From Phycisphaerales bacterium (GTDB taxonomy: Bacteria; Planctomycetota; Phycisphaerae; Phycisphaerales; UBA1924), in contig JABWBB010000032.1 of assembly GCA_013360675.1 (NCBI GenBank), positions 1-34,466 of the forward strand: a stretch of 34,466 nt of DNA. The letters run 5' to 3'. Below, piece by piece: positions 5,984-18,928 of the stretch; position 1 is the first letter of the stretch; each line of letters begins with the position of its first letter. Below the pieces are notes generated by a model. It had not been told where the DNA came from. It saw only the letters and a program-made list of their open reading frames with translations, and searched no databases. The translations under genes were made by a program, and so were the position numbers.

Positions 5984-7741
5984 TTAGTCGGGCTTGGCGG
6001 GAGAACGAACGACGGTGGCGGAGGGGCTCGCGCCGGGGATGGGATAGTCGGCGGGGTCCATGCCCGGGGGCACGACGCTCTCGTAGTCGTACGGGCCGTG
6101 GGTGACCAGCGGCTCGTGGTGGAAGTTGTGCTCCGGGGGCGGGCTGTCGGTGGCCCACTCGAGGGTGAGGCTGCCCCACGGGTTCTGGGGGGCCTTGCGC
6201 CCGGCCACGAGCGAGTGGACGAAGACGAAGAGGTGGATGAGGAAGCCAACGAGCAGCATCAGTGAACCGATGGTTGACCACTGGTGCAGCGTGGTGAAGG
6301 CGTCGGGGTAGCTGGCGTAGCGCCGCGGCATGCCCTGCACGCCGATGAAGAACTGGGTGAAGAAGGTGAGGTTGAATCCGAGGAAGACGACGATCGCCGC
6401 GAACTTGGCGACGGGCTCGTTGTACAGCTTGCCGAACATCTTGGGCCACCAGTGGTGGAGGCCGGCCATCAGGGCCATGAGCGTGCCGCCCATCATGACG
6501 TAGTGGAAGTGGGCGACGACGAAGTAGGAATCGTGGAGGTGGACGTCGGTCGCGAGCGTGCCCAGGGGCAGACCCGTGAGCCCGCCGATGGCGAAGAGGA
6601 AGAGGAAGATCAGGGCGTAGAGCATGGGCGTGGTGACGGCGATCGACCCTTTGTACAGGGTAACGGTCCAGTTGAAGACCTTAACCGCCGTGGGAATCGC
6701 CACGAGGAACGTGAGAGCCGAGAAGACGACCGAGGCGGCCTCGCTCATTGACGTGAACATGTGGTGGCCCCACACGATGAAGCTCACGCCGGCGATGCCC
6801 AGACCGCTGTAGGCCATGGCGCGATAGCCGAACATGCTCTTGCGGGCGTGGGTGGTGATGACCTCGCTGATGATGGCCATGCCGGGGAGGATCATCACGT
6901 AGACGACCGGGTGGCTGTAGAACCAGAAGAAGTGCTGATAGAGGACGGGGTCGCCGCCCAGGGCCGGGTCGAAGATGCCGATGCGCAGAACCCGCTCGAG
7001 CACCAGCAGCAGCAGCGTGATGCCGATGACGGGCGTGGCCAGGACCTGCAGGATCGAGGCGGCGTAGATGTTCCAGACGAACAGGGGCATGTCGAACCAG
7101 CCCATGCCCGGGGCGCGGAGCTTGTGCACCGTCACGACGAAGTTCAGCCCCGTGAGGATCGAGCTGAACCCCAGGATGAACGCGCCCAGCACCATGATCG
7201 CCACGCGCCAGTATTCAAGATCGGTCGTGGTGGAATACGGCGTGTAGAAGGTCCAGCCGGTATCGACACCGCCCAGGATGATCGCCGTCACGGCGAAGAG
7301 CGACCCCAGGACATAGATGTACCACGAGAGGAGGTTGAGCCTGGGAAAGGCGACGTCCTTGGCGCCGATGAGCAGCGGGAGGAAGAAGTTGCCCAGCGAG
7401 GCGGGCACGCTTGGGACGAGCACCATGAAGACCATGATCGCGCCGTGGAGGGTAAAGATGCGGTTGTAGATATCGTTGCCGGCGCTGATGCTGGTGGCGC
7501 CCTCCTGCGCGAAGAGCTGGCCCTGAACGACCCCCTCGACGATGCGGGTGGGCTCCCAGAGCTCGAGGCGGACGAAGATCGCGCTGATCCCACCCAGGAA
7601 GAACATGAAGAGGATCGCGAAGAGGTACATGACGCCGATCTTCTTGTGATCGACGGTCGTGGCCCAGTCCCAGATGACGGTCATGGGCCCGCCCTTGGGG
7701 GTCAGGTAACTGCCCTCGTGATGATGCGTGTCGTGTGCCAT
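5984..7741 (-). CDS. coxA: Cytochrome c oxidase subunit I, A2-type (caa3)
   Basis: This 585-aa catalytic subunit reduces O2 to water at a heme a3-CuB centre and pumps protons. It has about 12 helices. Ligands visible: His99 (TLHG, heme a); His277 and Tyr281 (YSHPVVY, CuB and the cross-linked Tyr); His326-His327 (WGHHMF, CuB); His411 (heme a3) and His413 (heme a) in VVAHFHYV. Asn118 and Asp129 ([13 protein letters not shown]) fit the D-channel entry. The usual Glu of HPEVY is absent: the sequence is FYSHPVVY, the YS motif that defines A2-family heme-copper oxidases such as the Rhodothermus marinus caa3. GGAGAG lies 6 nt before ATG 7741. It sits between coxB and coxC. Identification is secure. 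Confidence 0.98.
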
Positions 7742-7787: not shown

Positions 7788-8900
7788 TTAGTTCCCGCCG
7801 CGATCGCTCAGGGACTTCATGTACGCGAAGATGGCCTCGAGTTCGTTGTCCTTGATCTGGCCCTGGAAAGACGTCATCTGGTTCGAATAGCCCTCGACGA
7901 TCTTCTTCGCCGGGACGAGGATCGACTCGCGGGCGCTGTTCTCGTCCATGATCGCGGTCGAGCCATCGGTGTACTTGGATTCGTACCCCCACTTGTTCAG
8001 CCACGTAGGGCCGGTGCCCTTGGACCCGTCGATGGTGTGGCACGAGGCGCACTTGCGCTGGTAGATGAACTTGCCCAGGTCGATGGGCGAGAGGCCCGCG
8101 GTGCCGATGGTGCCCAGCCACTGATTCCACTTGTCCTCGGGGACGACGCGGATGACCGCCGCCATCTCGGAGTGCTCGTTGCCGCAGTATTCGGCGCAGA
8201 AGACCCAGTGGTCGCTGTAGGGCACGCCCCACATGGGGCTGGACTCGTTGAGCCCGTGGGCCTCGCCCAGGGTGGCGGCGTCGGCGGGGAGCGACGTGTT
8301 GAACCAGACGCTGGTGTAGCGGTTGGGCATGATGTCGGCCTTGATCCGGAAGTCGGGGACCCAGAAGGCGTGCATCACGTCGCGCGAGTTCATGCGCAGC
8401 TTGATCGGGCGGTCGGCGGGCATGTAGAAGATCGGCACCGGGCGCGAGCCGATGGTCGTCGATTCGCGGCTCTGCGAGCCGTTGGGGTACTCGAGGTCCC
8501 AGTTCCATTTGTAGGCCGACACGCTCAGCTCGATCGCATCGCCGGGGGCGACCATCTTGTGCATGTACCCCTGGAAGCCGACGATGAACATGGGCACGAG
8601 GCAGAGCGTGGGGACAACGGTCCAGACGATCTCGAGCTTGGTGCTGTGGTTGGGGCTGGCCGGGGCGATGGTGCCCGGACGACGCCGGTAGCGGATGACC
8701 CAGTAGAACATGAGCCCCATCAGCAGCACGAACCACGCCGTGCAGAACCAGAAGATGCCGATGTACACCCAGTCGGTGTGCTGGCCCTCGGCGGTGGTGG
8801 CCGGGCCGCGGAACCAGAGCCGGGTGAGGGTGTCGTTGATCCCGGCGGGGAGCGCGAAACCCGCGTTGAGCAGCCCGGAGGTGTCAAGCATCCGCATCAT
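7788..8900 (-). CDS. coxB: Cytochrome c oxidase subunit II with fused cytochrome c domain (caa3 type)
   Basis: This 370-aa electron-entry subunit has two transmembrane helices (about 44-69 and 90-112). A cupredoxin domain carries the complete CuA site: His177 (VMHAFW) and the cluster [12 protein letters not shown] (235-246) with Cys235, Glu237, Cys239, His243 and Met246. A C-terminal cytochrome c domain (about 275-366) has heme motif CASCH (284-288) and probable axial Met342 in QMTSFQG. The fused domain makes the enzyme a caa3 oxidase that can take electrons directly from a donor complex without a separate small cytochrome. The start ATG 8900 lies 4 nt after the sco stop, with GGGGTGAG just upstream. 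The N-terminus before helix 1 is long (43 residues) with no strong signal peptide. Confidence 0.97.
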
Positions 8901-8904
8901 CGGC

Positions 8905-9822
8905 TCACCCCATGTTCGCCGCGGGCTGTTCGACCCGCGGGGAAGCGTCGTTGGCCCGCGCGAGCGCGGGCGTGGACGAACGGTTCGCGCCGCGTCGGCG
9001 GACCCGCTCGCTCAGGATCATCAGTCCGATCAGCCCGCCAAGGCCGATCACGGTCGCTGCGCCGGCGATCTGCATCACCCGGATGACCTGCAGCGTGTAG
9101 GTCCCCGTGGCGTCGTCGTACATGTAGCAGAAGAAGAGCAACCGATCGCCCACCGACTTCACCAGCTTGCCCTCGGTCGCGTCCAGCAGCGAGAGCTTCA
9201 GGTTGCGCGCGGGGTAGGAGAACCCGTAGATATAGCGGCTGACCTTCCCCTCGGGCGTGATCACGAAGATGCACGCCGGATGGCTGTACTCGCCGTTCTC
9301 CAGCCGCTTGTATTTGAAACCCACCGCGTCGGCCAGTTCCTTCACCGCCGCCGCCTGCGACGTATGGAACTGCCACCCGGCGCGCACATCAGCCGTGACC
9401 GGGCGGTTGTACCCGGCCAGGTAGGCCTCGCGTCGCCCGCTGGCGTCCTGCGTCGTCTCGGCGGGGTTGAAGCTCACCAGCAGGCAGTTGAAATCCTGGC
9501 CCACGGTCAGGTCGAGGTCCTGCAGCGATTCGGCGATCTTCTCCATCATCACCGTGCAGATCACGGGGCACTTGTAGTAGACCAGCGCCAGCACCGCGGG
9601 CTTGCCGTCTTTGAAGTAGTCGCCCAGGCGGACCTGCTTCCCGTCGGCGTTCGTGAAGACCTCGTCGAGCGGGAGGGTGTTGCCCACCTTCTCTTCGATG
9701 TCGAGTCCCTGGGCCTGCTCGGGCACATCGGCGAGCAGCTTCTGCGCGCGCGCCGCGGGCGTGGCGATGCTCAGCATCAGCATGCCCAGCAGCAGAAGGA
9801 GTTGGCCCGGCAACGGCTTCAC
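8905..9822 (-). CDS. SCO1/SenC-type copper chaperone with C-terminal membrane anchor
   Basis: This 305-aa protein has a cleavable-looking signal peptide (1-26, ending ARAQ), then a thioredoxin-like SCO domain (about 45-225) and a C-terminal transmembrane helix at about 249-272 followed by a basic cytoplasmic tail. Copper ligands are Cys85 and Cys89 (KCPVIC) and His181 (YSHPACIF). SCO proteins deliver copper to, or reduce, the CuA site of subunit II, and coxB follows within 4 nt, which fits that job. Canonical SCO1 is anchored by an N-terminal helix, so anchorage at the C-terminus is notable; similar forms exist near ACIII loci. The start is GTG 9822 with weak ribosome-site support; the signal peptide supports it. 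Confidence 0.92.
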   Translation of the reverse strand: MKPLPGQLLLLLGMLMLSIATPAARAQKLLADVPEQAQGLDIEEKVGNTLPLDEVFTNADGKQVRLGDYFKDGKPAVLALVYYKCPVICTVMMEKIAESLQDLDLTVGQDFNCLLVSFNPAETTQDASGRREAYLAGYNRPVTADVRAGWQFHTSQAAAVKELADAVGFKYKRLENGEYSHPACIFVITPEGKVSRYIYGFSYPARNLKLSLLDATEGKLVKSVGDRLLFFCYMYDDATGTYTLQVIRVMQIAGAATVIGLGGLIGLMILSERVRRRGANRSSTPALARANDASPRVEQPAANMG

Positions 9823-9841: not shown

Positions 9842-10240
9842 TTAATTGGTGTCCTTGGGGGCGTACGAGGCGACGACGCGCTTCATGGCGGCGTCGATCG
9901 GGATGCGGACGCGGTCGTGGTCCATCCACGCATACTCGCCCGGCTGGCCGCGCTGGCCCAGTTCCTTCTCCGCGTTGAACTGCGCCGACTTGAAGGCCTT
10001 GGCCGACGAGGTCGTCTCGACGGCGTGGGCGCGCAGCTGGTTCGAATAGCTGTTGAAGTACATCAGCGTGCCGATGACCGACACCACCACGAAGACGCTG
10101 ATCCCCACCATCCAGATGAACAGCAGGTTCACGTTCACCACGCCGGCGTGTTCGGCCTGGGGCATCCCCTCAGCCTTCGAATGGCGATGCCACTCGTCCA
10201 CGTGCTCGTGAACCTCGGGCGTGTGCAGGTTGCTCGACAT
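9842..10240 (-). CDS. Small single-pass membrane protein between ACIII and caa3 genes
   Basis: This 132-aa protein is not one I can name. Residues 1-32 are polar and His-rich, a single helix spans about 36-62, and a soluble tail of 70 residues follows, probably outside the cytoplasm. The tail ends with DRVRIPIDAAMKRVVASY (109-126). The RIPI(D/E)xxM core of this stretch recurs in ActE just before its heme motif (RIPIEVSMDLL), in the same operon. There are no cysteines. It follows actF by 131 nt and precedes sco by 19 nt. By position it could be a seventh ACIII subunit (some ACIII loci have an extra small subunit, ActG), a linker between the two complexes, or an assembly factor. These roles are inference. 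Confidence 0.8.
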   Translation of the reverse strand: MSSNLHTPEVHEHVDEWHRHSKAEGMPQAEHAGVVNVNLLFIWMVGISVFVVVSVIGTLMYFNSYSNQLRAHAVETTSSAKAFKSAQFNAEKELGQRGQPGEYAWMDHDRVRIPIDAAMKRVVASYAPKDTN

Positions 10241-10371: not shown

Positions 10372-11679
10372 TTAGACGTAGTTCTTGTGGTGAAGCGATT
10401 CGGGCATGTAGGGATCGTTGGTCGCGACCAGCGTGCCCGACCCGACCTTGCGGAGCAGGAAGCCCGTCAGGATGAGGGGGCAAGCGGCGATGCCGACGGC
10501 GTCGAGCCAGACGCCCGCGACGCCCGGCCCGGCATCCCCCGCCGTGGGCAGGTAGGCCATGGGGCGGATGATCCAGGCGATGTCGCAGAGGTGCATGAGG
10601 ATCGCCCAGAGGGCCATGAAGGTGAGGGCGTTGTAGCTCTTTTTGACGCCGCGGAAGATGAGGATGAGGAACGGGGCGCCAAAGTGCCCTGCCATCAGGA
10701 TGATGCCCAGGTTCTGCCACCCGTGCGACTGGCGATGGAGGAAGTAGGACGTCTCTTCGGGGATGTTGGCGTACCAGGTAAGGAAGTACTGCGAGAAGGC
10801 GATGTAGGCCCAGAAGACCGTGAAGGCGAACATCAGCTTGCCCAGGTCGTGGAAGTGCTCGCTGGTGACGACGCCCTCGAGTTTGCCCGCGCGACGCAGC
10901 GAGGCGAGGATCAGCACGACGACCGACACGCCGCAGTAGATGGCGCCGGCGAAGTAGTAGACGCCCCACATGGTGCTGAAGTAGCGGAAGTCGAGGGCCA
11001 TGAGCCAGTCGAAGGCGGCGAACGCCGTCGACAGCGCGAAGACCAGGATGCCCCACGAGCTGGTGAAGCGGGCCTTGAGCGAGAGGAAGCGGTCGCCCGT
11101 GGCGTCCTGCAGGACGCTCAACTTCCACAGGCGGCGCGAGAGGTACGTCCACACGAACAGGTAGAGCGCGGCACGGATGACAAAGAAGACCGGGAAGGTC
11201 GCGTGCCCGGGCTCGTGGTGCTGGGGCCAGAAGAAGTAGCCCGCCTTCTTGTGGAGCAGATGGTCGTTCGCCCATTCGGGGCTAAGCCACAGGAAGAGCT
11301 TGCCGTGCGTGGCGATCTCGATGGCGATCGTCGGCAGCACGAGCAGGGCCGCCACGGGAGTGAAGGCCATGACATTTTCAAACTGGCGACGGACGGTCGC
11401 GGACCAGCCGGCGTTGGTCAGGTGGAACACCATGACCAGGGCCATCGCTCCCAGGCAGATGGCCAGGGTGGCGGTGGAGCCGATGTGGTACGCGGCCAGA
11501 GCGTGCTTGAGCGTCACCCCGCCCGCGCCGATAAACCCGGCGATGAGCGCGACGACCGCGAGCACCAGGCCCACGCCCACGAGCGTGAAGCCCATCGGGT
11601 GCGGCCCGGCGAGCGTGACATTCTCGCGCGACAGTGGATCGTGGTGGGCCCCGTGGCTGGAGGCGGCGGTGTGACTCAC
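10372..11679 (-). CDS. actF: Alternative Complex III membrane subunit ActF
   Basis: This 435-aa polytopic inner-membrane protein has about ten hydrophobic segments. ActF is a paralogue-like partner of the NrfD-type quinol subunit ActC in Alternative Complex III and is not thought to bind a redox cofactor. Recognisable features are the sixth position of an actA-F series, the soluble His-rich N-terminus (1-20), the charged periplasmic/cytoplasmic loops around HKKAGYFFWPQHHEPGH, and the segment FAYIAFSQYF-like (seen as VFWAYIAFSQYFLTWYANIPEE) typical of ActF proteins. The start is GTG 11679, overlapping the actE stop by 4 nt (GTGA), which indicates translational coupling. A 131-nt gap follows. 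Confidence 0.93.
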   Translation of the reverse strand: MSHTAASSHGAHHDPLSRENVTLAGPHPMGFTLVGVGLVLAVVALIAGFIGAGGVTLKHALAAYHIGSTATLAICLGAMALVMVFHLTNAGWSATVRRQFENVMAFTPVAALLVLPTIAIEIATHGKLFLWLSPEWANDHLLHKKAGYFFWPQHHEPGHATFPVFFVIRAALYLFVWTYLSRRLWKLSVLQDATGDRFLSLKARFTSSWGILVFALSTAFAAFDWLMALDFRYFSTMWGVYYFAGAIYCGVSVVVLILASLRRAGKLEGVVTSEHFHDLGKLMFAFTVFWAYIAFSQYFLTWYANIPEETSYFLHRQSHGWQNLGIILMAGHFGAPFLILIFRGVKKSYNALTFMALWAILMHLCDIAWIIRPMAYLPTAGDAGPGVAGVWLDAVGIAACPLILTGFLLRKVGSGTLVATNDPYMPESLHHKNYV

Positions 11680-12437
11680 TGGGCACCTCCGGCGGGCGGG
11701 GTCATCTTCGGCGGGCGGGCCTTCTCGAGCGCCTGACGCTGCGCCTCGGGGACATCGTTGATCGTGGCGTTGCGCGAGGCCTGCAGCGCCCGCAGGTACG
11801 AGACGATCGCCCAGGCGTCGTGCGCGTTGACGGCGTGTGCGTAGGCGGGCATCGTCAGGCGGCCATCACCGCCCAGCTTGCCGTGGCGGATGATGTGGAA
11901 CAGGTAGCCGTCGCGCCCGAAGACGTCGGACGGGTCGGAATACTTGGGATCGTGAAACGTCGGCACGACGGGGTTGAAGCTGACGCCGACGGTGCCCTTG
12001 CCGTCGCCCAGGTACCCGTGGCACGCGACGCAGTAGATGTTGAAGCGTTCCTCGCCGCGCTTGAGCAGGTCCATCGAGACCTCGATGGGGATGCGTTCGA
12101 CGTAGGTGGTGCCGTCGGCTTCGAGCCCGCGATAGGTGCGGTCGTCCTCGCGGAGGAGCGCCTCACGATCGGCGGCGAAGGGAGCGGCCCAGGCGTCGGA
12201 CGCGACCACGTCGGTGCGGCCGAAGGGAACGGTGCCCGGCACGCCCGGGCGCATGGTGCGCCCGTCGGCGAAGAACTCGTTGCCCGCCTGCGGGGCGAAC
12301 TTGGGCATGTCGTCCATGTCGGGGAAGAACTGGCGTGGCGGGCGATCCTCGCGGTCGCCGCGACAGCCCGACAGCCCCGCCGCGAGACTCGCGAGCGTGG
12401 CGGCCAGAAGGATGCGATGTGCGGTTGAGTGGGTCAT
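11676..12437 (-). CDS. actE: Alternative Complex III monoheme cytochrome c lipoprotein ActE
   Basis: This 253-aa protein is a lipid-anchored periplasmic cytochrome c, the probable electron exit or relay subunit of Alternative Complex III. A lipoprotein signal peptide ends with LSGC (Cys25). The heme motif CVACH is at 136-140, and Met196 in LTMPAYA is the likely sixth ligand. RIPIEVSMDLLKRGEERF (115-132) precedes the heme; part of it recurs in the 132-aa protein downstream. ATG 12437 is chosen because it gives a compact signal peptide. An in-frame ATG at 12473 overlaps the actD stop but has its purine-rich site too close and would add 12 residues. The end overlaps actF by 4 nt. Confidence 0.93.
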   Translation of the reverse strand: MTHSTAHRILLAATLASLAAGLSGCRGDREDRPPRQFFPDMDDMPKFAPQAGNEFFADGRTMRPGVPGTVPFGRTDVVASDAWAAPFAADREALLREDDRTYRGLEADGTTYVERIPIEVSMDLLKRGEERFNIYCVACHGYLGDGKGTVGVSFNPVVPTFHDPKYSDPSDVFGRDGYLFHIIRHGKLGGDGRLTMPAYAHAVNAHDAWAIVSYLRALQASRNATINDVPEAQRQALEKARPPKMTPPAGGAQ

Positions 12438-12469
12438 GGATTGGCTCGTTCGGCGTGATGGACCGCCGA

Positions 12470-13039
12470 TCATTCCTCCACCAGTTCGATGCTCTTGGCC
12501 CCGGCCTTCTCGAGCAGCGCGCGGGTCTTGTCCGGGTCAAACATGGGATCCGACGCCTCGACCGAGATGAAGAAGCGGTCGTCGCTCACGCTCAGGAAGC
12601 GTTCCTTCTTGAGCAGCGGGTGGTGCCAGCGCGGCAGGCCGTTGAGCATGAGCATGCCCAGCAGCGCGGTGAACGCCGCCGACAGGATGCCCAGCTCGAA
12701 CGTGACGGGCACGAAGGCCTGCCAGGCGAGGAACGGCTTGCCCTGCACCATGGTGGCGTAGCCCTGGGTCGAGACCCAGGCCTGGAGCAGGAATCCCATC
12801 CCCGCGCCGCTGAGGCCGACGATGCCGATGGCCAGCGGGAGCTTGGTCCGCGCCATGCCCATCGACGACTCCATGTCGTGGATCGGGAAGGGCGAGTGAA
12901 CATCCCAGCGTGCGTAACCAGCGTCGCGCACCGTCTCGGCGGCGTGGACGACGGCGGCGGGAGTGGCGAACTCAGCGAGGATGCCGTGGATCGGCTCCCC
13001 GCACTCGGTGGCGTATGCCTTGCCTGAATGGGCGCCCAT
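12470..13039 (-). CDS. actD: Alternative Complex III subunit ActD (DUF3341)
   Basis: This 189-aa protein has a soluble N-terminal half (1-64) and two transmembrane helices at about 67-89 and 107-133, joined by a short loop, then a cytoplasmic tail. It matches the DUF3341 family: an opening ILAEFATPAAVVHAAETVRDAGY region, then WDVHSPFPIHDM (45-56) and the late FFISVEA segment. ActD carries no redox centre and supports the membrane part of the complex. It starts 3 nt after the actC stop; ATG 13039 begins the conserved protein directly. Confidence 0.94.
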   Translation of the reverse strand: MGAHSGKAYATECGEPIHGILAEFATPAAVVHAAETVRDAGYARWDVHSPFPIHDMESSMGMARTKLPLAIGIVGLSGAGMGFLLQAWVSTQGYATMVQGKPFLAWQAFVPVTFELGILSAAFTALLGMLMLNGLPRWHHPLLKKERFLSVSDDRFFISVEASDPMFDPDKTRALLEKAGAKSIELVEE

Positions 13040-13042
13040 GGC

Positions 13043-14587
13043 TTAGTGCGCTCCCTTCTTGTGGTCATCGGCGTGCGGGCTGGCCTGCGGCAGCACGGCC
13101 TTGATCTCGGCGATGGGGAAGACGGGGAGGAACCGCAGGAAGAGGAGGAAGAGCGTGAGGAAGATCCCGCAGCTGCCCACGAAGATCATGATGTCGACGA
13201 AGGTCGGGTGGAACATGTGCCACTCGCCGGGCAGGAAGGCCCGGTGGAGGCTCGACACGATGATGACGAAACGCTCGAACCACATGCCGATGGTGATGAA
13301 GAACGACACGATGAAGATGACCAGCGGGCTGCGGCGCATCGCCTTGATCCAGAAGACCTGAGGCGAGATCACGTTGCACGAGATCATCGTCCAGTAGGCC
13401 CACCAATAGGGCCCGAAGGCGCGGTTGAGGAAGACGTCGACTTCGAAGGCGTTCCCGCCGAACCAGGCGATGAAGAACTCCATCGAATAGGCGAAGCCCA
13501 CCATCATGCCCGTGACCAGCAGGATCTTGGCCATGTTCTCGAGGTGGCGCAGCGTGATCAGATCCTTCATGTGGGCGTAGAGCACGCGGCAGGGGATGAG
13601 CAGCAGCAGCACCATCGCGAACCCGCCGAAGATCGCCCCCGCCACGAAGTAGGGCGGGAAGATCGTCGTGTGCCAGCCGGGCAGGATGCTCGTGGCGAAG
13701 TCCATCGACACGATCGAGTGCACGCTGAGCACCAGCGGGGTGCTGATGCCCGCCAGCACCAGGTACGCCGCCTCGTAGCGGTGCCAGTGACGCGACGAGA
13801 AGCGCCAGCCCACCGCCAGCAGGCCGTAGATCACCGCGCGGGCCTTGTCGGTGCGAATGGGCACGAAGGGCGCGATGCGGGCGGCCGAGTCGCCCAGTTG
13901 ACGCAAGCGCCGGTCGGCGCGGTCACGCAGGGTGGCGAAGTCGGGGATCATCCCCATGTACCAGAAGAGGAACGAGACCGTGCCGTAGGTCGAGATCGCG
14001 AAGACGTCCCACAGCAGGGGTGACTTGAAGTTGGGCCAGATCCCGTTGGCGTTGGGGAGAGGCGCGAGGAACCAGGCCATCCACTGGCGGCCGATGTGGA
14101 TGCCCGGGAAGGTGGCGGCGCAGATGACGGCGAAGATGGTCATGGCCTCGGCGGCTCGGTTTACCGCCGTGCGCCACTTCTGCTTGAAGAGGCACAAGAT
14201 GGCGCTGATGAGCGTGCCGGCGTGGCCGATGCCGATCCAGAAGACGAAGTTGGTGATGTCCCACGCCCAGTCGACCTGGTTGTTGAGACCCCACGTGCCG
14301 ATGCCCGTGATCACGAGATAAAGAATCATCAGCCCGCCGAAGCCCGCCAGCGACGAGGCGAACAGGAAGGCGGGCAGCCACCAGCGCGGGGGCTTGTTCT
14401 CGGCGTAGCCGCAGACGATCTCGGTGATGTCGTGGAACGAGCGGTTGTTGAGCACCAGCGGCGCGCGCACCGCGGGGTCATCGACCAGCGAGCCGTCGCC
14501 CGTTCCGGGGGCGGGGGGCATCGACGGGCCGGGCGCCTGGCCCGCCAGGCGGCGTGCCGTCAGTTCATCGGGCGAAAAACTGCTCAT
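13043..14587 (-). CDS. actC: Alternative Complex III quinol-binding membrane subunit ActC (NrfD family)
   Basis: This 514-aa NrfD/PsrC-type integral membrane protein has about ten helices. In Alternative Complex III, ActC is the main site of quinol oxidation next to the FeS subunit ActB. Features seen: a disordered Pro-rich N-terminus (1-45); [15 protein letters not shown] (47-61), typical of ActC; the helix stretch [17 protein letters not shown] (115-131) with His122; and [10 protein letters not shown] (160-169) with His164 and Arg167, conserved membrane-facing polar residues of the family. It overlaps actB by 4 nt (ATGA), implying coupled translation, and precedes actD by 3 nt. Assignment is secure. 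Confidence 0.96.
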
Positions 14588-17500
14588 GCGTGGACTCCGG
14601 GCAGAACTCGCAGCGAAATCGGGCGACCTTTCTCACGATCACGCCCGGGCGTACGCACGGCGTGGCCCTTCTCGTCGTGACCGCCCGCGGGCCCGTGGTG
14701 GAACGGATGCTCCCAGCGGTGCTTGCGGTCGGCGTCGCACAGCGCGGGGTTGGGGTTCATCACGCGGAGCATGTGGCTCGTGCGCGGGCGGGTGTTGACA
14801 TAGCCCAGCAGCAAGTAACTGCGGGCGTGGGCCCGCGTCCTGGCGACCTGGCTCTGCGCATCGAGCATGTCGCCGAAGGTGATCGACCCCGAGGGACACG
14901 CCTGCTGGCAGGCGGTCTGGAAGAAACCGTCGGGCACTTTGTCGAGGCCCTTGAGGCGGGTCTCGTAGCGGGCGGCGTTGATGCGCTGGATGCAGTACGA
15001 GCACTTCTCCATCACGCCGCGCGAGCGAACCGAGACATCCGGGTTCTGCTGCATCTTGGTGATGTCGTCGAGCTTCTGGCGGAGGCGCGGGGGGATGAGG
15101 TTGGGGTTGACCTTGTTGTGCTTGCCCGAGCCGGTGATCCCGCCGCGATCGGGGGCGATGGCTTCGATGGCGCCTTTGAAGTAGTAGTCGCCGTTGAACT
15201 TGTGCCAGCCGTACTCGAAGAAGTTGTACCGGCGCACCTTGTAGGGGCAGTTGTTGGCGCAGTACCGCGTGCCGATGCAGCGGTTGTAGACCATGTAGTT
15301 GATGCCCTCGGGCCCGTGCACCGTCGCATTGACGGGGCAGACGGTCTCGCAGGGGGCGTTCTCGCAGTGGACGCAGGCGACGGGCTGGTGGTGCATCGCC
15401 GAGGGGTCGTTGAAATCGGTGCCCGCGAAGTAGCGATCGACGCGGATCCACGTCATCTCGCGACCCTTGGCCACTTCCTTCTTGCCCACGACGGGGATGT
15501 TGTTCTCGCTCTGGCAGGCGATGGTGCACGCCCCGCAGCCCGTGCAGGTCTGCTGGTCGATCGTCATCGCCCACTGCTGGTCCTTCGAGTACGCCGAGCC
15601 GGGCTGCGCGTTCTCGGGGCCCTTGTTGTACGGGTTGTTGTAGATCGAAATGTTCGCGGGCGTGTGCGACAGTTCGCCCAGCCGTTCGGCGAAGTTCAGG
15701 TCGGCCTTGGTGCCGTACATCCCATCCACGCGGCTGTCGATCTCGTCGCCGAAGGCCTTCCACGCGGGCAGGTCCACCACGCGCACGAGCGAGTCGCGCC
15801 CCGTGATCGCCCAGTTGTTCTGGGTCGAGACGATCATGTACGCGCCGGCGTCGGGCTGGGGCGTGATCGTGCCGCGGGCGGCGTTGACGCCGAAGCCCGA
15901 TCCCACCAGCGGGTAGAAGTTGAAGCCGACGCGGTCGCCGACCTTGCCGCAGTCATCGCGCCCGTAGCCCAGCACGCAGATGGCGGTGTTCTCGGCCATG
16001 CCGGGCAAGAGCCAGACCGCGCCGCGCACCGTCCGCCCGTCGATGGTGACGTCGGCCTGCACGGCTTCGGGGTAGTTCGTCTTGGTGTACGCCCCGTCGG
16101 GGTCCTTGTGGCTGTAGCCCGTGGGGAGCAGGCCCATCGCTTCGGCGGTCGCCGGGGCCATGAGGATCGGATTGTCCCACACCGTGCGGGTGGCCGCCTC
16201 GGGCAGTTCCTGCAGCCAGGGAATGTTGGCCCAGCGCCCGTCGCCCGGGTTGCCCACGCGGAAGACGACATCCAGCGCTTGCGTGCTGGGGGCGGCAGCA
16301 ATCGAGAGCGAGGCCAGGCCCTCGGCGATGCTGGCGAAGTTAATCGTCGGGTTCAGCGGCGTCGGGGCCGAGCCGGGCAGCACGCCGTCGTGCAGCGCAC
16401 GGCGCCAGGCCTTGTCGAAGCCGGCCTCGCCCAGGCGTGTGCGCCACTGGTCGCGGACGATCTCGTACCCGTCGATGCGGGCGGTCGAATCGGTCGAGGC
16501 GAGCAGCGCGAGGAACTCGATGGGGCTCATCGCCGGCTCATAGATGGGCGCGATCATCGGCTGCACGGGCGCGAGGGTCCCGTCGAGCGCGAGCGTGTCG
16601 CCCCAGCTCTCGAGATAACTCGCGGCGTTGAGCGACCAGGTCGACGCCGCCGCCGTCTCGGTGCTGTCGACGCTCAGGCACAGCGTGGTCGGGCAGGACT
16701 TGTACAGCGCGGCAAAGCCCAGATCGCCCGGGGCGTCGTACACGGGGTTCGCGCCGACGCACACGACCGTGTTGACGGCGTGCGACTTGAGTTTGGCGGC
16801 GAGGCCGGCCAACCTCGCGCGGGAATCCGCCGCCTCGTCCTCGCCCATCGGGTAATAGGCCACGCTCGCGCCGATGTTGCCCAGGGCGGCGTTGAGAGCG
16901 CACACCAGCGCGTGCACCGGCGCGGGGAGCGAGTCGCCCGCGACGATCAGCGTCTTGCCGCGGTTGGCCGCGTCGGCCAGGTCCTTGGCGCACGCCTCGA
17001 GGAAGTTTCGATCGATGTCGCTGGTGTCGCCCGCGAACGACGCCAGCACGCTCGTCACCGCCTGGGCCCCGGGCTGCGCCAGCATCGGCAGCAGGAACTT
17101 GGCCAGTTCCACCGCGAAGGCGCTGACCCGCGAGGGGGCCAGGCGCAGGCGGTGGTCGGCCTGCCCGCCCGTGAGCGAGAAGCCGCTCTCGACCATGTAC
17201 AGGCGGCTCATGTCGTCCTTGGTGCTCGCCAGGTCGCGCGACGCGGCGAACCCGCGCGCATTGGCCACCTCGCCCGCCTCTCGCGTCACAAAGTCGCGGT
17301 CGAGCGACAGGATCACGCGCGTGTTCTGCTTCGAGATGTTCAGCACCTCTCGCATCGGGCTGCCGAAGGCCAGGCGCGATCCCTCGATGGGTGCGCTGCT
17401 CTGCGCGGGCGACCAGGCCACCCACGCGGCCTTGGGCCAGCGGGCCAGCACCTTCGCCTTCATCGCGGCGAAGGTCGGGCTGCTCGTCTTGTCGGCGATG

Positions 17501-18165
17501 AAGGCCAGCCCCTCGCCCTGGGCGGCGTCGTACTTCGCAAAGTGCGAGCCCGCCCACGCGCGGAAGTCGTCCCACGTCGCGTTGACGCGCCCCTTCGCCG
17601 GATTCTTGTAGACGGGGACCATCAGGCGGTCGGGGTCGTAGAGCGACAGGATGCTGGCCATGGCCCAGGTCGACACGCGCCCGTGGTTGGCCGGGTGGAG
17701 CGGGTTGCCCTCGATCTTGGTCGGGCGACCCTCGTGGGTTTCGACGAGCAGGCCCTCGGCCCCGCCGTCGGGTCGCGCAAAGCTCGTCGCGAAGTAGAGC
17801 GGCTTGCCGGGGATCACGTCCTCGGGCGCGTTGGCCGAGTAGGGCATGATCGTGTGATCGGGGCGACGGCAGCCGGGGATCGTCGCCGCACCCGCCAGGG
17901 CCACCGACGCGCCGATGAGCTTGAGGAAGTCGCGGCGCGTGTCGCCCCCCTGGGCCATGGCGCGGCTGAACTCGGTCGCGCCCGCGGTGAACTCGCGCTC
18001 GACAAAGTCGCGGAAGTGGGCCGTGTCGGCGGCCTCGTCGAGGCTGCGCCAGATCGGCACCCCGCCCGCGGTGGCCAGTTGCCGGTGCACGCTGGCCAAC
18101 TCGCCCTTACCGGGCTGCTTCGTTTCACCCTTCGTCGTGGTCGGGTATTGATCCGCGTTGCTCAT
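14584..18165 (-). CDS. actB: Alternative Complex III iron-sulfur subunit ActB (molybdopterin-like plus FeS domains)
   Basis: This 1193-aa periplasmic-facing subunit takes electrons from quinol and passes them through FeS clusters. Residues 1-100 form the extended Tat translocation domain of the family ([14 protein letters not shown] at 38-51, then [11 protein letters not shown] at 77-87). A molybdopterin-oxidoreductase-like domain follows (about 100-840); in characterised ACIII it binds no metal cofactor. The C-terminal ferredoxin-like part starts at about 865. It has 15 cysteines in four groups (874/877/880/884, 931/934/939/943, 963/969/973, 1055/1058/1086/1090), enough for three [4Fe-4S] and one [3Fe-4S]. 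In CIGTRYC a Thr (966) takes the place of one expected Cys, which fits the 3Fe site. It lies 58 nt after actA. Confidence 0.97.
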
Positions 18166-18223: not shown

Positions 18224-18928
18224 CTAGTAGTGACACGCGCCGCAGTTGTCGGGCGGAGTGCGCTCGAGCGATTCGAGCAGCGCCTTGCCGATGTTCGTCG
18301 CCTCGGCGCTCCCCGCGGCCCGGTCGGCCAGGTGCTTCTCCACCCAGATCAGGTCCGTCACGCGGTCCTTGGGAACCAGCGCGTCGCCCGGGTTGGCGTG
18401 GCAATCCAGGCACCACGACATGCTCAGCGGCTGCACCTGGTGCACCACCGGCATGCCCGCGATCTGCCCGTGGCACGAGTAGCAGCTCACCCCCGCCGCC
18501 ACGTGCACCTGGTGCGGGAAGTTGTGCACGTAGTCGGCGAGTTTGTGGACGCGGCGCCACGGGATCGATTCATCGCGGGCGTAGGCGTCGCGGATGAACG
18601 CGGTCTTCTCGACGTGCACGGGCGAATCGGTGAACTGCGTCAGGCGTCCCTCGGCGTGACAGCCGTAGCAGACCGACACACTGGGGATGTTCGCCTCGTA
18701 GCTCTTCTCGACGTTGGAGTGGCAATAGCGGCAGTCCATGCCGAGCTTGCCCGCATGGATCTGGTGATTGAACCCGCCGCCGGGCTGCAGGGGCTGATAG
18801 CCCACGTCATAAAACTTGGGCGTGGCGTAGTACCAGAACCCGCCCACCGCCGTCGTCGCGCCGCCGGCGACAACCACCGCCAGCAGCGTCGGCAACGCGT
18901 TCGTCCACTTCGGGAAAATGACCGACAC
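18224..18928 (-). CDS. actA: Alternative Complex III pentaheme cytochrome c subunit ActA
   Basis: This 234-aa multiheme cytochrome is anchored by one N-terminal helix (about 11-33). Five CxxCH heme motifs are visible: CRYCH (66-70), CYGCH (87-91), CYSCH (149-153), CLDCH (173-177) and CGACH (229-233, one residue from the C-terminus). Five hemes match ActA of the Rhodothermus marinus complex. Additional histidines (for example in FNHQIH and HNFPHQVH) can be distal ligands. GTG 18928 is chosen because AGGAGG lies 6 nt upstream. It is the first gene of the 15-kb operon and diverges from ctaA across about 250 nt. Confidence 0.96.
   Translation of the reverse strand: MSVIFPKWTNALPTLLAVVVAGGATTAVGGFWYYATPKFYDVGYQPLQPGGGFNHQIHAGKLGMDCRYCHSNVEKSYEANIPSVSVCYGCHAEGRLTQFTDSPVHVEKTAFIRDAYARDESIPWRRVHKLADYVHNFPHQVHVAAGVSCYSCHGQIAGMPVVHQVQPLSMSWCLDCHANPGDALVPKDRVTDLIWVEKHLADRAAGSAEATNIGKALLESLERTPPDNCGACHY

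Follow-up and report, generated by a model that had tools for sequence, protein, structure and literature searches.

A membrane protein encoded between ACIII and oxidase genes in a Phycisphaerales bacterium: probable identity as ActG, and a C-terminal module that may recur on cytochromes

Introduction

What is the small membrane protein that is encoded exactly where the genes for ACIII give way to those for its oxidase? The question is raised by a stretch of 34,466 nucleotides from a Phycisphaerales bacterium (assembly GCA_013360675.1, contig JABWBB010000032.1; the window), which holds at this junction a protein of 132 residues that matches no family when scanned with Pfam and NCBIfam. A first-pass annotation, made from the sequence alone, had proposed it as a seventh ACIII subunit or a bridge between the two complexes, or else as a relative of ActE. 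The analysis described here gives the protein what is very probably its name, ActG, and a family that extends across three phyla. ActG is a subunit already known in kind and little studied; what deserves attention is how widely it occurs in these phyla and that cytochromes appear to have exchanged tails with it. One paper, in its accessible part, calls ActG specific to the ACIII of Chloroflexus aurantiacus (PMC9316378), and the ACIII-caa3 supercomplex of Rhodothermus marinus is known only from a 20 Å map, according to the portion of PMC5928083 available. The short conserved module of ActG offers a mutable handle on how ACIII holds its oxidase, and an exchange of tails among ActG, cytochrome c and CoxB, if true, would make that holding directly testable.

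The locus and its protein

All the genes concerned lie on the minus strand, to which every window coordinate given here refers, in the order actA-B-C-D-E-F-actG-SCO-coxB-coxA-coxC-coxD. The series begins with actA, which encodes a multiheme cytochrome c detected by domain scan (18224-18928), and actB (14584-18165), an open reading frame placed through homologous loci whose identity we take from established knowledge of ACIII clusters. These are followed by actC (13043-14587; PF03916), actD (12470-12964; PF11821, E 2.6e-55) and actE (11676-12473), whose product is a monoheme cytochrome c of 265 residues from the first ATG that matches chain 6f0k_E. The product of actF (10372-11679) has no Pfam match at E 1, and the gene is presumably rightly named from its place, from homologous loci and from what is established of ACIII clusters. 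A gap of 131 bases separates actF from actG (9842-10240), which has an ATG start and an AAGGA-like ribosome-binding site 5' of it, and only 19 bases separate actG from the downstream SCO1/SenC gene (8905-9822; PF02630). Then come coxB (7788-8900), which the domain scan shows to be a caa3-type subunit II with a cytochrome c domain, and coxA (5984-7741), recognised as an open reading frame with counterparts in homologous loci. The first-pass placement of a single-pass protein of 132 residues at the junction is therefore borne out, between actF and SCO-coxB.

The hydropathy of the protein reveals a single strongly hydrophobic stretch, predicted to form a transmembrane helix at residues about 39-61 (10058-10126), where the AlphaFold2 model also has a high-confidence helix. 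There is no cysteine, and no CxxCH or other cofactor motif. Towards the C-terminus lies a module, residues 103-126 (9863-9934), that is conserved among 52 homologues in the form Y-x-W-x-D ... V-R-I-P-I-D-x-A-M ... Y and that includes RIPIDAAM at residues 112-119 (9884-9907). Within it AlphaFold2 places strands at residues 104-106 and 112-114 and a helix at 115-126, with pLDDT of 48-65 over the block, such that the module may, at low confidence, be a short pair of strands followed by a helix. The model as a whole, with a mean pLDDT of 61.9 and a pTM of 0.26, is too poor for a fold search. Acidobacterial and proteobacterial homologues, scanned with Pfam only, unlike the window protein, gave one non-significant match, to DUF7016 at 0.18.

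Relationship to ActG

The identity of the protein emerges from profile comparison. When a profile of 51 homologues is compared with the chains of the PDB, it finds 8k9e_G, a chain named ActG, at E 2.5e-10, with the next match at 0.019; a profile of 22 sequences reaches the same chain at 7.1e-6, and an acidobacterial homologue by itself at E 0.0064. The window protein alone returns only chance matches from the PDB and no ActG, and so the link runs via intermediates. It extends over about 45 residues of the tail, with the transmembrane helix outside, and homology to an experimentally identified ActG is thus established by profile and for the tail only. We take 8k9e_G to be the ActG of C. aurantiacus ACIII. 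The protein, found also in entries 8k9f, 8x2j and 9ilt, is small and has a C-terminus, LLNSYGYTMEGKVHIPIDRAMDLIVERGLPVR, that matches the family module, whereas its N-terminus and membrane segment cannot be aligned with those of the window protein. The window protein is also set apart by the histidine-rich character of its N-terminus and by the end of its tail, which is Y where 8k9e_G has RGLP. A single transmembrane helix, the lack of CxxCH or other cofactor motif and a place in the act cluster beside actF are all as would be expected of ActG.

How does this compare with what has been published? In C. aurantiacus, ActG is described in the available text as membrane-bound and as one of seven ACIII subunits (PMC9316378). 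The accessible part of PMC3150298 has actG preceding SCO1 in the Cr operon of this organism, and as the last gene of the Cp operon (Caur_0621-0627), in which there is neither SCO nor oxidase genes. For R. marinus, the portion of PMC5928083 at hand reports ActG as a seventh subunit, predicted to have a single transmembrane helix, that was detected by mass fingerprinting and is absent from the map, and states that ActG is not found in every act cluster; on this description it would resemble the window protein. By contrast, the available text of PMC9316378 holds that ActG is not present in R. marinus ACIII. Given this disagreement, the name ActG may cover two unrelated small proteins. Our literature search found nothing on 8K9E and no open paper on the contacts of the ActG tail. 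Taken together, the homology to 8k9e_G and the synteny with actF and SCO-coxB make it very probable that the window gene is actG, encoding the seventh ACIII subunit within an actABCDEFG-SCO-coxBACD superoperon, much as the first-pass annotation had suspected.

Conservation, gene context and distribution

A search with the single window sequence finds homologues in 22 of 41 genomes, comprising 22 of the 25 that belong to its own family and 0 of the 16 that represent the rest of the order. Scanning genome contigs yielded four actG loci, including one acidobacterial and one alphaproteobacterial MAG. Across the 52 sequences compared, P114 and A118 are invariant (52/52), W105 is kept in 45 and I115 in 42, position 116 is D or E in 47 and position 119 is M or I in 37, but R112 is found in only 22. 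The signature is therefore YxWxD...G.V.[IV]PI[DE]xA[MI] rather than RIPI as such. This table omits loci L037 and L044, and alignment A3 omits L037, L041 and L044, on account of poor matches or unclear starts; L029 is a duplicate of L023.

The neighbourhood is similarly constant. In all 24 larger loci (L023-L046) ActG lies inside a SCO-coxB cluster, with coxB missing only at L040, where the stretch ends, and actF is seen in all except L031, a short stretch whose smaller counterpart L006 does show actF. SCO adjoins actG in 29/29 acidobacterial loci, 28 of which have actF; among planctomycete loci actF is present in 29/29 and SCO in 28/29; and in the proteobacterial phylum to which L025 belongs, 10/10 loci have the tail motif, 9/10 actF and 7/10 SCO. 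The order actF-actG-SCO-coxB accordingly holds for planctomycete, acidobacterial and most proteobacterial loci, and linkage to SCO is not obligate, as no SCO was detected adjoining actG at L192, L193 and L198 (3/10). At L193 (genome G496) the locus is rearranged, with actG adjoining coxB-coxA, actB oppositely oriented and no actF in the stretch.

Searches of the same samples, with the profile for ActG and the model for ActD, found ActG in 60 and ActD in 100 of 149 Acidobacteriota; in 37 (39 before curation) and 107 of 199 Planctomycetota; and in 10 (13 before curation) and 33 of 299 genomes of L025's phylum. The weak matches in G202, G247, G563, G452 and G427, which are without the tail and without ActD, were not counted, nor were second weak matches in G183 and G361; G069 was counted, as were G265 and G372, where the match misses the tail yet lies 2.6-2.7 kb from actD. 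ActG thus occurs in 107 of 647 genomes over three phyla, and every one of the 107 is ActD-positive. With P114 and A118 invariant and the gene in so many genomes, the motif is conserved and the gene recurs elsewhere, as the first-pass reading needed both to do. ActG lies no more than 3 kb from actD on the same contig in 58/60 Acidobacteriota, 36/37 Planctomycetota and 9/10 of L025's phylum, the exceptions being G070 and G368 (separate contigs), G148 (6.6 kb, in another order) and G496 (opposite strand). Of the 240 ActD-positive genomes, 133 have no ActG, and the subunit is therefore not essential.

Possible roles of ActG

What might such a subunit do? In the mechanism considered here the single transmembrane helix would anchor ActG beside the membrane arm of ACIII, and the conserved C-terminal module, YxWxD..G.VRIPIDxAM, would plug into a site on ACIII and stabilise the complex; in oxidase-linked clusters ActG would also help to hold ACIII next to the oxidase. 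The presence of ActG without oxidase genes in the Chloroflexus Cp operon, as given in the accessible part of PMC3150298, implies that ACIII should itself carry the docking site. We infer this docking mechanism with the odds evenly balanced, and identity and mechanism together form the best explanation of the data, one that is reasonably likely to be correct.

One difficulty relates to topology. The count of lysine and arginine flanking the helix is higher on the C-terminal side in 33/52 sequences and on the N-terminal side in 5/52, a bias that argues for a cytoplasmic tail and against a docking role in the periplasm. Set against this, the N-terminus of 8k9e_G is arginine-rich within the aligned part, and the tail may lie on either side of the membrane.

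The strongest competing explanation is that the protein is a bridge specific to the ACIII-oxidase supercomplex and not a subunit of ACIII by itself. This would account for why ActG loci, where the stretch is long enough to tell, are almost all oxidase-linked, and why most ActG-less loci are standalone or have another oxidase order, but it is hard to reconcile with the Cp ACIII of C. aurantiacus, which has ActG and an operon without oxidase genes (PMC3150298 and PMC9316378, as far as the available text of each goes), and we regard it as improbable.

Could ActG instead be an oxidase assembly factor, a partner of SCO in work on the CoxB copper site that binds copper through its histidine-rich N-terminus? 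The adjacency of actG and SCO in nearly all loci would fit, as would the charge bias, which would place the N-terminus outside. The N-terminal DxWHxH...H region (residues 15-31; 10148-10198) is conserved in Phycisphaerales homologues, with D15, W17, H20 and H31 each in at least 90% of 22 sequences, but when acidobacterial sequences are added the family consensus no longer contains this motif, and the three proteobacterial loci with no SCO detected beside actG (L192, L193 and L198) sit poorly with the idea. Moreover, ActG is a chain of solved entries (8k9e_G) that we take to be ACIII complexes. Together with the Cp operon, which in the part of PMC3150298 available has actG and no SCO, these points make an assembly factor unlikely. 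The histidine-rich stretch of the Phycisphaerales proteins is, in its own right, a possible metal site.

The likeness to ActE

The RIPI motif had first drawn attention to the protein. Both copies exist as the first-pass annotation had them, RIPIDAAM in the small protein and RIPIEVSM in the pre-heme segment of ActE (12072-12095); counted from the first ATG the latter occupies residues 127-134, and the 115-122 given for it would correspond to a start 12 residues further on. The best score for an octamer shared by the two proteins (BLOSUM62, 28) is reached by 6.25% of 2000 shuffles of the small protein (P 0.06). Of the 12 operon partners compared, ActE gives the smallest shuffle P (0.055, uncorrected), followed by ActC at 0.095. 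The match within this genome is hardly beyond chance, and would appear to be incidental.

The comparison of families leads to the same point. Of the 74 further ActE proteins compared, 23 of them from loci with ActG and 51 from loci lacking it, none keeps R[IV]P[IV][DE]..M ahead of the heme, and the looser [RK][IVL]P[IVLM] is found there in 8. The window ActE matches the R. marinus ActE, 6f0k_E, at E 1.2e-42, and the aligned segments read YVERIPVAVT in 6f0k_E, YVTTIPIRIT in 6lod_E and VDAMPFPVT in 8k9e_E, the last two being presumably the ActE of Roseiflexus and Chloroflexus, respectively. RIPIEVSM is thus the pre-heme element of ActE itself, and no link to ActG is needed. The best alignment of the ActE family profile to the ActG module does land on the RIPI segment, with an hhalign probability of 0.46 and a score of 12.75, but controls score 9.4-18.2 and the similarity is thus not beyond chance. 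Kinship of the small protein, as a heme-less form, with the ActE N-region is therefore very unlikely, and so is a motif common to the two that serves a single docking surface, the alternatives that the first-pass annotation had suggested.

ActG-like tails in clusters without ActG

If ActG is dispensable, what is found in clusters without it? A total of 80 ActG-less ACIII loci were fetched, 40/40 of an acidobacterial sample and 40/70 of a planctomycete sample. Many are standalone ACIII clusters, and others have SCO-coxA-coxC-coxD-coxB downstream. L157 and L169 have the oxidase gene order of the window and a different small membrane protein at the place of ActG; these single-helix open reading frames (L157:2717-3253 and L169:6646-7047) are missed by the ActG profile, the former ending in LAVPIHEGLRRYLRAYREQHGR and the latter being without the tail motif.

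The oxidase-linked ActG-less loci frequently have a cytochrome c after actF or a cytochrome domain on CoxB, and many of these cytochromes have ActG-like C-termini, for instance NRIPVARAVDILCREY (L135), PKIPVSMAMAKLEEEY (L112), KTIPVDDAIEAM (L149) and REFPIDEAMEAL (L179). Such a tail, on a separate cytochrome c or fused to CoxB, is present in 17 of 22 clusters of this kind (L112, L113, L118, L121, L122, L124, L127, L129, L135, L137, L138, L141, L145, L148, L149, L177 and L179), the list of 22 having been drawn up by the analyst from the fetched loci. The pattern is absent from L109, L116, L156 and L174. Left outside the 17 were L133, with the same gene order and IPVSRAMARL after the heme, and L158, with RRTIPIEQAKRAY in a reading frame other than that of CoxB. 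The same pattern occurs in 0/28 ActG-positive loci that show an ActE or CoxB with a heme site and, with the identical script, in 0/58 remaining ActG-less loci; a close variant is found in 12 of 612 C-termini of other operon proteins. As the genomes are related, the Fisher P of 2.7e-9 for 17/22 versus 0/28 is no true probability.

In ActG-less acidobacteria the tail-bearing cytochrome c lies between actF and SCO, the same neighbourhood as ActG, and in ActG-less planctomycetes the tail is fused to CoxB. The tails read IP[IV]xxA...L..E[YF] at the C-terminus, spaced just as they are in ActG, but these proteins differ from ActG in having a heme domain and in lacking the YxWxD...G part of the module. 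With hhalign the ActG module matches the cytochrome tails at a probability of 92.6 and a score of 30.4, the best of 87 control windows scoring 16.7; the tail had been noticed by eye before testing, and the windows compared had been chosen so as to centre on the motif. The probability is 73-84 against full-length mixed cytochrome alignments, 85 against four CoxB fusions and 18-35 against full-length acidobacterial cytochromes alone, and falls to 0.26 for a reversed alignment and at most 3 for nine other families. An HMM of the ActG tail only, run over 9495 open reading frames of ActG-less loci, gives a best E of 0.015 versus 0.49 in reversed frames; its top matches are tail-bearing cytochromes with odd domain boundaries, a result too weak alone. 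PDB searches with a tail-bearing cytochrome and a CoxB fusion found no solved chain over the tail.

These observations raise the possibility, which we put forward as tentative and somewhat less likely to be right than wrong, that the C-terminal module of ActG is a portable tag for docking to ACIII. One set of superoperons would have the tag on a bare membrane anchor, ActG, and those without ActG would bear an equivalent tail on a cytochrome c or on the cytochrome domain of CoxB, with the electron acceptor or oxidase thereby tethered directly to ACIII. A docking site on ACIII means that a CoxB-fused tail would tether the oxidase to the complex, and as c-type cytochromes are periplasmic the cytochrome tails should be so too. 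The first-pass idea of a docking surface shared by the ActG tail and a heme protein may still hold in another form, judging from the sequences compared, with the tail placed behind a cytochrome c.

A separate feature of the ActG-less loci is that 19 open reading frames (377-856 residues) join ActD and a heme-bearing ActE in one frame, as in L135:8383-9570 and L113:8935-10122, against 0 in ActG-positive loci. A similar ActD-ActE fusion is reported for Melioribacter in the accessible part of PMC3534657.
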